In this document: piece after piece, positions 45,919-47,864 of the stretch
Numbering within the stretch: the stretch's first letter is position 1
Layout of the letters: each line of letters starts with the position of its first letter
NCBI GenBank assembly: GCA_012729815.1
Contig: JAAYCJ010000269.1
Span: 1 to 47,864 of the forward strand
Direction of reading: 5' to 3'
From: Phycisphaerae bacterium
Lineage (GTDB): Bacteria > Planctomycetota > Phycisphaerae > JAAYCJ01
DNA length: 47,864 nt
Notes under the pieces: model-generated
Databases searched by the model: none
What the model was told of the DNA's origin: nothing
Seen by the model: the letters and a program-made list of their open reading frames with translations, nothing else
Program-made: the position numbers and the translations under genes

Positions 45919-46962
45919 GTGGCCGCGGAAACGACGAAAGCCGAACTGAACGCCGAACAGGCACGCAGACTGCTCGCGCCGATCGGAGCGGTCGCGATCG
46001 AATCCATCGAACGCCTCGAATCGATCAACACCGTCTTCCGCATCGCCACCGCCGGTCACGGCGTCTACTACGCCAAGTTCCACACCGCCCGCTGGTACGC
46101 CGATCAGCCGGACACGTTCTTCGTCGTCAATCGCGAGTGCGCCGTGCCCGCCCTGCTGCGGAAGTTCGGCCTCGCCCTGCCGTACCCAAGCTGGGGTGAG
46201 TACACCCGCGGCATCGTGCCGCGATCCGTCTTCCTCTGCGGCGATCTGGGCGGTACGGCTGCGCCCGACGCCATCCTCGCCCATCCCGACCAGGCCGACG
46301 ACATCCTCCGGGCCCTCGGCCGATACCTTCGCCGCCTCCACTCCATCGAATTCTCGCTGCCCGGCCTGATCGAACCTGCCCACGCCGAATTCGCCCAGCC
46401 GGGCCAACCCGTTCCGCCCGTTTACGCCTGGCCGTTTCTCGCCGATCCCGCCGCAGCCGACCAAGCCGACGCCCTGCAGAAGGTCCCGGAAGCCCAGACC
46501 GCCGGCGCCCTCACCGCCGAAACCGCCGCAAGTCTGAAACGCCTGCTGGCCGACATGGCCCAGATCGTCCGACCCTTCTACCACCCGCCGCACTTTGCCG
46601 TCGGCAACTGCCATGTCCACCATTTCCACGTCGAGCGCACCGCCGCCGGCTGGAGCGTTCGCGGTTTCTACGACTTCGAAGGCGCCCGCGCCGGCAATCC
46701 GCTGATGGACTTGGTCGGTATCGAGGACACCCTCGCTCCGCGTCTGCGATCCTTCGCCTGGCGCAAGCCCTTTTACGAAGGCTACGGCGGCTGGCCGCCG
46801 CTGCAGGCGTTCAAGATGCAACTGATCGCCGACGCCCTCCTGTCCTACCGCACCCGTCCACCCGGCCGCCGCATCCCCGACCACCTCTGGTTCGACACCC
46901 AGTGGCCCAGACTCATCGCCGCCCAATCCTGGTCCGACCTGACCTGGTACCCAACCGAGTGA
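45919..46962 (+). CDS. APH-fold phosphotransferase-like protein with altered catalytic loop
   Basis: A 347-residue protein of the aminoglycoside phosphotransferase/choline-kinase fold. The N-lobe has YYAKFHTARWY with a candidate ATP-binding Lys. LGRYLRRLHSI precedes the catalytic region. Where the family has H-G-D-L-H-x-x-N, this protein reads G-N-C-H-V-H-H-F-H (about residues 228-236): the base Asp is Asn and the metal-binding Asn is His. The following FYDFEGARAGNPLMDLV keeps the DxD/DFE-like metal Asp. It may be an inactive or altered kinase. Start is GTG 45919 after GGGAGG. The 20-base gap suggests cotranscription with aspartokinase; substrate unknown. Confidence 0.75.
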   Translation: MAAETTKAELNAEQARRLLAPIGAVAIESIERLESINTVFRIATAGHGVYYAKFHTARWYADQPDTFFVVNRECAVPALLRKFGLALPYPSWGEYTRGIVPRSVFLCGDLGGTAAPDAILAHPDQADDILRALGRYLRRLHSIEFSLPGLIEPAHAEFAQPGQPVPPVYAWPFLADPAAADQADALQKVPEAQTAGALTAETAASLKRLLADMAQIVRPFYHPPHFAVGNCHVHHFHVERTAAGWSVRGFYDFEGARAGNPLMDLVGIEDTLAPRLRSFAWRKPFYEGYGGWPPLQAFKMQLIADALLSYRTRPPGRRIPDHLWFDTQWPRLIAAQSWSDLTWYPTE

Positions 46963-47039: not shown

Positions 47040-47864
47040 TCAGCCAGCCACATACGGCGGCTCGTACAGCTTGCGGATATCGTCGATGCTGTGCCGGATC
47101 ATGGCCAGACGCTCCAAGCCGATGCCGAAGGCCACACCGTTCACCCGCCCGGGGTCGAATCCAACCGCCCTCAACGTCTGCGGTTGAAGCAGTCCGCAGC
47201 CGGCGATGTCACGCCACGTTCCCGCCACCTTCACGAACACCTCATATCCTTCCTGCACGAACCCGCCGAACGTGCACTCGGTCCAACGCAGTTCCGTCGG
47301 CCCGACCGACGCCGCCACCACCCGTTCCAGGGTTTCCTTGAGCTGCCGCACATTCACACCCGCTTCGATCCGGATACCGTCGACCTGGTGGTGCATCTTC
47401 AAATGCGTGGCGTCCTCAGGATCCGGGCGGAAGACCCGTCCCGCCGCCATCAATCGGACCGGAGCCTGACGGCTGCGGACCGCCGCCAGCGTCGTCACCG
47501 TCATTTGCGTTCGAAGCGCCGTCTGATCGTCCAGATGGTACGTCCGGTCCAGGTCCTCGCGCACCACCGCCAGTTCGGACCGATCGACTACCTCCGATCC
47601 TTCGATCACCTCATAATCCGGTAGCGCACGGCGGATCAGGTCCCACGCCTCGCGCACCGGATGGCCCGGAATCTCCAGCGGCCGAGGGCGAGCGAGCAAC
47701 TGCTCGATCACCCGTTTGGAGAACCGTTCGTCCGGCGCGTTGTCTTTGATCGTCTTTTCCACCATCGTCATCATCCTTTCCTTCAGTTGCACCCTTGCCG
47801 CGTGAAGACGGTTGTTCACTGTGGTCACCGGCACTTCCAGAAAATCCGCGATCTCCTTCTGCGA
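47040..47864 (-). CDS. Sigma-70 region 4 fused to phenylalanyl-tRNA synthetase alpha-like core (5' end beyond window)
   Basis: The frame is open from the right edge to a stop at 47040-47042, giving 274 residues. The first 40 (KEIADFLEVPVTTVNNRLHA, then ARVQLKERMMTMV) are the helix-turn-helix and tail of sigma-70 region 4. After a linker comes a class II synthetase core of PheS type: RPLEIPGHPVREAWDLIRRAL, LRTQMTVTTL, LMAAGRVFRPDPEDATHLKM then HHQVDG (motif 2), DIAGCGLLQPQTL and FGIGLERLAMIRHSIDDIR (motif 3). The usual NFDALN..HPAR segment and the N-terminal coiled coil are absent. PheS normally needs PheT; none is visible. An internal ATG cluster behind AAGGAAAGG (about 47770-47780) could also start the synthetase part alone. 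Confidence 0.8.
   Translation of the reverse strand, partial: SQKEIADFLEVPVTTVNNRLHAARVQLKERMMTMVEKTIKDNAPDERFSKRVIEQLLARPRPLEIPGHPVREAWDLIRRALPDYEVIEGSEVVDRSELAVVREDLDRTYHLDDQTALRTQMTVTTLAAVRSRQAPVRLMAAGRVFRPDPEDATHLKMHHQVDGIRIEAGVNVRQLKETLERVVAASVGPTELRWTECTFGGFVQEGYEVFVKVAGTWRDIAGCGLLQPQTLRAVGFDPGRVNGVAFGIGLERLAMIRHSIDDIRKLYEPPYVAG

Follow-up and report, generated by a model that had tools for sequence, protein, structure and literature searches.

BirA, a biotin ligase that is at the same time a repressor, combines an active ligase with a winged-helix domain and controls transcription through its adenylate ligand. Two proteins derived from HisRS, the kinase GCN2 and the enzyme subunit HisZ, represent a different arrangement, as neither of them is known to bind promoters. 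The locus described here lies at the end of a stretch of 47,864 bases, referred to below as the window, and encodes part of a sigma factor fused in frame to a core derived from PheS. It resembles BirA in that a DNA-binding helix-turn-helix is joined to a class II synthetase fold, and GCN2 and HisZ in the apparent recruitment of a synthetase-derived domain as a regulator. However, the parts here are a sigma factor and a PheS-type core rather than a repressor or a HisRS derivative, no Pfam match to BPL_LplA was present, and the resemblance to BirA is one of design only. SrmL (NF051887), a PheS-related mystery ligase, is likewise a PheS paralogue outside translation, but the window protein scores below the cut-off of its model, and we know of no description of SrmL fused to a sigma factor.

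Among ECF sigma factors, at least 26 groups carry C- or N-terminal extensions (PMC8999054), and ECFs with WD40 repeats have been reported from Planctomycetes (PMC8567305). Like these extended ECFs, the fused proteins have a C-terminal domain behind sigma regions 2 and 4, and such a domain is expected to control the sigma part. While ECF groups 41, 42, 56, 57 and 238 possess a SnoaL, TPR, WD40 or Cys-rich C-terminal domain, the domain found here is tRNA-synt_2d and, unlike the tails of the extended ECFs, this PheS-derived core is swapped for unrelated domains within one clade, even at one locus. No anti-sigma domain was recognised in the fused proteins. A synthetase tail is not mentioned in the review (PMC8999054), and neither such a tail nor an exchange of this kind was found in the full-text literature searched, whose coverage excludes the main ECF reclassification paper; the preliminary description of this DNA, which knew of no system with such an architecture, agrees with this outcome. 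An ECF family with a putatively self-promoting sigma module and exchangeable tails is apparently undescribed so far, and the gene in the window looks like a regulator or a regulatory cassette and not like a tRNA charging enzyme.

A sigma factor/PheS fusion gene at the contig end

The window corresponds to the entire contig G000:C269 of a 5.47-Mb source genome assembled into 367 contigs. On its minus strand, an open frame of 274 codons without internal stop runs from position 47864 to a stop at 47040, with the following parts:

47040..47864, minus strand: 3' part of the ECF sigma/PheS-like fusion gene, 274 codons plus stop (full-length homologue frames: 422-457 codons)
47775..47864, minus strand: C-terminal half of sigma-70 region 4 with helix-turn-helix SQKEIADFLEVPVTTVNNRLHAARVQLKER (Pfam; sigma-core model)
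47775..47783, minus strand: Shine-Dalgarno-like conserved codons K-E-R, AAGGAAAGG, at the sigma/tail junction (codon conservation)
47763..47765, minus strand: probable internal start ATG (Met34), 9 nt past the Shine-Dalgarno-like block (ATG in 16/16 aligned clade members)
47667..47762, minus strand: linker VEKTIKDNAPDERFSKRVIEQLLARPRPLEI; NAPDERF is common to an APH-tailed sister gene of the same genome
47058..47663, minus strand: reduced PheS-like class II synthetase core (tRNA-synt_2d; AF2/Foldseek)
47427..47429, minus strand: motif 2 arginine (GRVFRP), present here and in 8/9 fused copies overall
47244..47270, minus strand: FGGFVQEGY where the Phe-pocket FPFTEPS would be (alignment with PheS)
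47109..47111, minus strand: motif 3 arginine (GLERLAM), present here; Asn in G035 and G655

Residues 1-27 of this frame resemble the C-terminal half of Sigma70_r4_2 (23.6 bits, E 4e-5; Pfam), a score slightly below the cut-off of 25.7 because the contig stops there, and the ECF-clade model A4 is matched over positions 145-187 of 187. The contig end at 47864 cuts the sigma gene inside region 4, and the 5' part of the gene (region 2, start codon and promoter) lies beyond it. An overlap search detected no contig of the assembly that overlaps the window end, and a sigma-core profile search detected no orphan sigma region 2 of the clade elsewhere in this assembly. Residues 68-269 match tRNA-synt_2d (PF01409) with 146.7 bits against a cut-off of 19.8. 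A match of the window protein to FAD_binding_4 (14.1 bits; cut-off 26.4) was put down to chance, and models of anti-phage defence proteins gave weak matches only, over the helix-turn-helix part.

The same fusion is present in eight other genomes (G007, G035, G085, G190, G218, G605, G655 and G670), in most of them as a complete gene, with identities to the window protein of 51% (G007, a 437-codon frame), 43% (G035) and 31% (G085). Seven of the eight homologues have the sigma part in frame; the G218 copy is cut at its own contig end, at the linker. Recognition of the sigma part is weak in G085, with 92 bits in the sigma-core model, and in G670, with 64. A Pfam architecture scan, which among the fused homologues covered G007, G035, G085 and G190, matched Sigma70_r2 and Sigma70_r4_2 above cut-off, with no region 3, in G007, G035 and G190; in G085 region 2 alone was matched. 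TIGR02937 was above cut-off in three homologues. The homologues scanned in this way have an ECF-type architecture of sigma regions 2 and 4 only, joined to tRNA-synt_2d. A rightward search for region 2, as had been proposed, was answered by these four complete homologues, although no contig extends the window itself.

Although the fusion exists in relatives, it is rare and patchy: a domain profile found it in 6 of the 397 genomes of the class that were sampled, an alignment-based scan yielded four loci, and a search of 84,980 genomes for exact peptides of the window protein alone gave no match. In related genomes no standalone gene for the reduced PheS-like domain was found, the next matches below the fused copies being ordinary PheS, and plasmid records contained housekeeping-like PheS only.

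We considered whether the gene is an artefact of faulty annotation or assembly, or a pseudogene in decay. The contig stops inside the gene, the homologues stem from metagenome-assembled genomes or bins, one clade member (L117) looks frameshifted, and the third-position GC of the G035 copy is 0.36 compared with 0.55-0.71 for most of its neighbours. Against this stand the recurrence of the same fusion, free of internal stops, in nine genomes from several families and a confident PheRS alpha fold predicted for the window protein. The independent full-length homologues largely refute an artefact, which we regard as very improbable; an assembly frameshift joining two genes, the specific concern raised at the outset, is ruled out by the recurrence in eight other genomes, and the union of sigma region 4 and a PheS-like core in one frame is real.

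The tail has lost the hallmarks of PheRS

The AF2 model of the window protein, built from five sequences, reached a pLDDT of 82 and a pTM of 0.74, and in Foldseek it matched PheRS alpha with an E-value of 1e-20 and TM scores of 0.74-0.77 (target-normalised, trimmed chains). The model of the complete G007 homologue (pLDDT 65 overall) was poor in its sigma part, while its tail again matched PheRS alpha. By fold and by motifs 2 and 3, the domain in the window is a class II synthetase core of the F type. In the PheS equivalog model TIGR00468, however, the window protein scores 142.6 bits and the homologues 78-111, against a cut-off of 237.45.

All three losses noted initially are correct: the N-terminal tRNA-binding coiled coil of PheS is missing, with the sigma domain in its place; the NF(D/V)ALN...HPAR segment is missing; and FGGFVQEGY replaces FPFTEPS. 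HPAR is absent from 9/9 fused copies and invariant in 51/51 canonical PheS proteins from relatives. The second Phe of the Phe pocket is retained in one of the nine fused copies, the motif 2 arginine in eight and the motif 3 arginine in seven, compared with 51/51 canonical PheS for each. Positions for adenine stacking and the His positions vary among fused copies, while the tabulated active-site residues are almost all invariant across the 51 canonical proteins. The genome has a separate PheS (contig C43) and PheT (C21), from which the PheS-derived domain is distinct. Since PheS and PheT are encoded separately, HPAR and FPFTEPS are gone from all nine copies, and the motif 3 arginine is lost in two, the tail is not PheRS and is predicted no longer to charge tRNA-Phe. 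Because the Phe pocket is not kept, phenylalanine is an unlikely ligand common to the fused copies; the phenylalanine sensing initially envisaged is hard to reconcile with the lost HPAR, the altered FPF pocket and pocket positions that differ among members.

These residues also bear on whether the tail might be an active ligase or modification enzyme of the PoxA/EpmA or SrmL type that the sigma part takes to DNA or RNA polymerase. Both catalytic arginines are present in 7/9 fused copies, the window included, and there is a weaker similarity to SrmL (115 bits); the SrmL cut-off is 300 bits, though, the amino-acid pocket residues vary among members, and the fusion is retained in G035, which lacks both arginines, and in G655, which lacks that of motif 3. 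We judge such an enzymatic role to be improbable.

One ECF clade with many tails

Three further genes of the window's genome score above 300 bits against the sigma-core profile A4, the next ECF reaching 73 bits. Compared with the G007 homologue, their sigma cores have identities of about 55-60%, and Pfam assigns their tails to APH, GspF-like and sialidase (BNR) domains:

L034:1141-2868: clade sister with APH tail
L035:4656-5957: clade sister with GspF-like tail
L036:4323-6149: clade sister with sialidase-like tail

Overall, the tails are APH, GspF-like, sialidase-like or Rho RNA-binding domains in sister genes whose sigma cores are 55-77% identical, and GNAT-like, TPR, HEAT, ATP-synthase-like, ankyrin-like or second-sigma domains in more distant clade genes of the class and phylum (the GNAT-like tail, without a Pfam match, and the ankyrin-like tail were assigned by eye). 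The PheS-like tails form a single clade (support 100/100), whereas the sigma cores of the PheS-tailed genes are not monophyletic: a constraint on five of them was rejected with an AU p of 2.6e-5 (4e-3 without G007). Judged from these trees and domain matches, a single ECF clade carries many exchangeable tails, the PheS-like domain among them.

Individual members of the clade deserve mention. In L120:625-2151 the ECF sigma is in frame with a complete second sigma factor possessing regions 2, 3 and 4 (FliA-like by eye), and L119:418-2073 joins an ECF sigma to part of the ATP synthase alpha/beta nucleotide-binding domain. On contig C390 of G140 two members (L117 and L121) lie on the same strand, about 3 kb apart at most, and L117 is apparently frameshifted directly after region 4. 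In the window, a gene at 45919-46962 (plus strand), convergent to the fusion, looks by eye like one for an aminoglycoside-phosphotransferase-type kinase; an APH tail is present on a sister sigma gene of this genome.

The most telling example of tail exchange comes from G007 and G025, two species of one genus. At one and the same locus they are collinear, with identities of 85% in the upstream flank and 83% in the sigma part. Their tails are unrelated:

L037:5727-6466: PheS-like tail, 0.74 kb (G007)
L040:5009-5734: Rho RNA-binding tail at the same locus, 0.73 kb (G025)

Ungapped identity is 20/20 up to the codons for MIAMV and 9/20 immediately beyond them, and similarity returns at 78% directly past the stop codons. 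Comparison of the two sequences shows in-situ replacement of the tail between these congeners. A third congener, G016, was checked for the ancestral tail, but its contig stops shortly upstream of the gene.

A promoter-like element upstream of the clade genes

The 5' regions of 14 of 17 clade genes contain an element consisting of A(A/T)CC, 15 nt, GGCTC and then TTTAttGTGGAaGG. The best 44-bp motif had an EM log-likelihood of 234, compared with 106-120 in shuffled sequences. Since the distances between the element and the sigma core cover all three frames, the element is not protein coding. It was the best site in 14/14 upstream regions, also when close relatives were left out, for sites initially chosen by the same motif search; the left-out PWM score for G007 was low (3.4-9.8 bits). 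AAC at -35 is a stated hallmark of ECF promoters (PMC8103513), and the element, by its sequence, resembles an autoregulatory ECF promoter.

A search of the own genome with the pattern GGSWCTNWWNNRTRGA returned four sites, two of them 5' of the APH- and BNR-tailed sigma genes; the remaining two, inside other coding regions, were judged to be chance matches. With a looser pattern, 27 sites were found in eight genomes versus 55 for the reversed control, and scores above 14 bits occurred only at sigma genes. When 1.5 Mb of G007 were scanned with the PWM, matches were no more frequent than in shuffled sequence, but the left-out scores show that the PWM is unreliable for G007's own site. No targets beyond sigma genes were found in the genomes examined with patterns whose sensitivity for the known elements is only about one half. 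A conserved element 3' of the genes was sought as well, and the signal was weak (55 vs. 41-45 in shuffles).

A probable conserved internal start at the sigma/tail junction

At the junction, the K-E-R-M codons read AAG/AAA GAA AGG ATG. AGG is used for 14/14 Arg codons (5.4 expected) and GAA in 11/11 cases (6.8 expected), with own-gene usage as the baseline and kinship ignored, and these two columns are the most constrained of 75 in codon conservation. Members that deviate in amino acid mostly retain a Shine-Dalgarno sequence: the GspF-tailed gene of the own genome has GGGAGG, G605 has GGAGG, and G655 has a weaker one. An ATG lies 9 nt past the Shine-Dalgarno-like block in 16/16 aligned clade members. 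Elsewhere in the own genome, ECF genes comparable at this position have CGN or different residues and no such Shine-Dalgarno/ATG arrangement. An alternative reading of the junction codons is a recombination handle; translation is favoured because the deviating members preserve the Shine-Dalgarno sequence. A start at Met34, probable from this codon pattern, would yield a free PheS-like protein of 241 amino acids. The possibility raised earlier, that the synthetase part is normally translated alone from an internal ATG cluster, meets with a mixed answer: nucleotide-level evidence points to a conserved start there, which may release the tail, and the tail may exist both fused and free.

A proposed self-activating sigma module with an exchangeable tail

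Our best reading, to which we assign about an even chance of being right, is that of a self-activating ECF sigma module whose exchangeable tail is a sensor or effector derived from PheS. It builds on what the sequences show: a conserved fusion that has lost determinants of PheRS, tails that are exchanged, and two conserved DNA signals. Beyond this we infer that the module regulates its own gene, that translation yields fused and free tail, and that the tail gates sigma. The sigma part, with its regions 2 and 4, probably transcribes the gene that encodes it from the recurrent upstream element, while the PheS-derived tail would most likely sense a small ligand or a protein or RNA partner and thereby gate the sigma part. 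The tail would be carried on an exchangeable cassette with its boundary at the end of region 4, where the internal start probably also yields the free PheS-like domain. Some findings count against this reading: no target genes other than sigma genes were found, which would be odd for a sensor-regulator and is also in keeping with an effector role, and both catalytic arginines persist in seven of the nine copies, which leaves some probability for an enzymatic role.

A further reading is a self-activating cassette of promoter, ECF sigma and internal RBS that would transcribe mainly itself, with exchangeable C-terminal domains made fused and free and with in-situ swaps of tails from one species to another. 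The PheS-like tail would be one of its payloads and might act as a decoy or sensor of the parent housekeeping machine. This reading is tentative and rather doubtful. The main rival to a gated sensor takes the sigma part to be a self-expression device only, with the free tail as the product, acting as effector or decoy of the housekeeping protein that it resembles (PheS, GspF, ATP synthase, Rho or a sigma factor). It is favoured by full copies of the element at sigma genes only in the patterns tested, by the conserved Shine-Dalgarno/ATG inside the gene at the junction, by a constant 5' module followed by variable tails, several of them like subunits of multi-subunit machines, and by the congeners G146 and G164, which have the element and the gene in common but not the flanks. 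However, no one decoy theme accommodates HEAT, TPR, ankyrin, APH and GNAT tails, the search for a regulon is incomplete, and complete copies retain the full-length frame, which would be needless if the free tail alone mattered. We consider this rival unlikely.

If the gated sigma module is the true arrangement, sigma factors would act as modular carriers of sensors or effectors, and bacteria would have a parallel to BirA and GCN2. The natural set of chimeras, with one sigma core and different tails even at the same locus, would then offer a test of the control that a fused domain exerts over sigma.

Possible signs of mobility

In the congeners G146 and G164, the upstream element and a sigma-GNAT-like gene are common (L168:1149-2309 vs. 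L169:6497-7657), while the flanks differ; from this comparison, the unit of element and gene looks as if it had moved. In several instances (window position 47864 and the ends of L088, L167 and L040) a contig breaks at one of these sigma genes or no more than a few hundred bases from it; the breaks may stem from a mixture of tails in the populations sampled or be coincidental.
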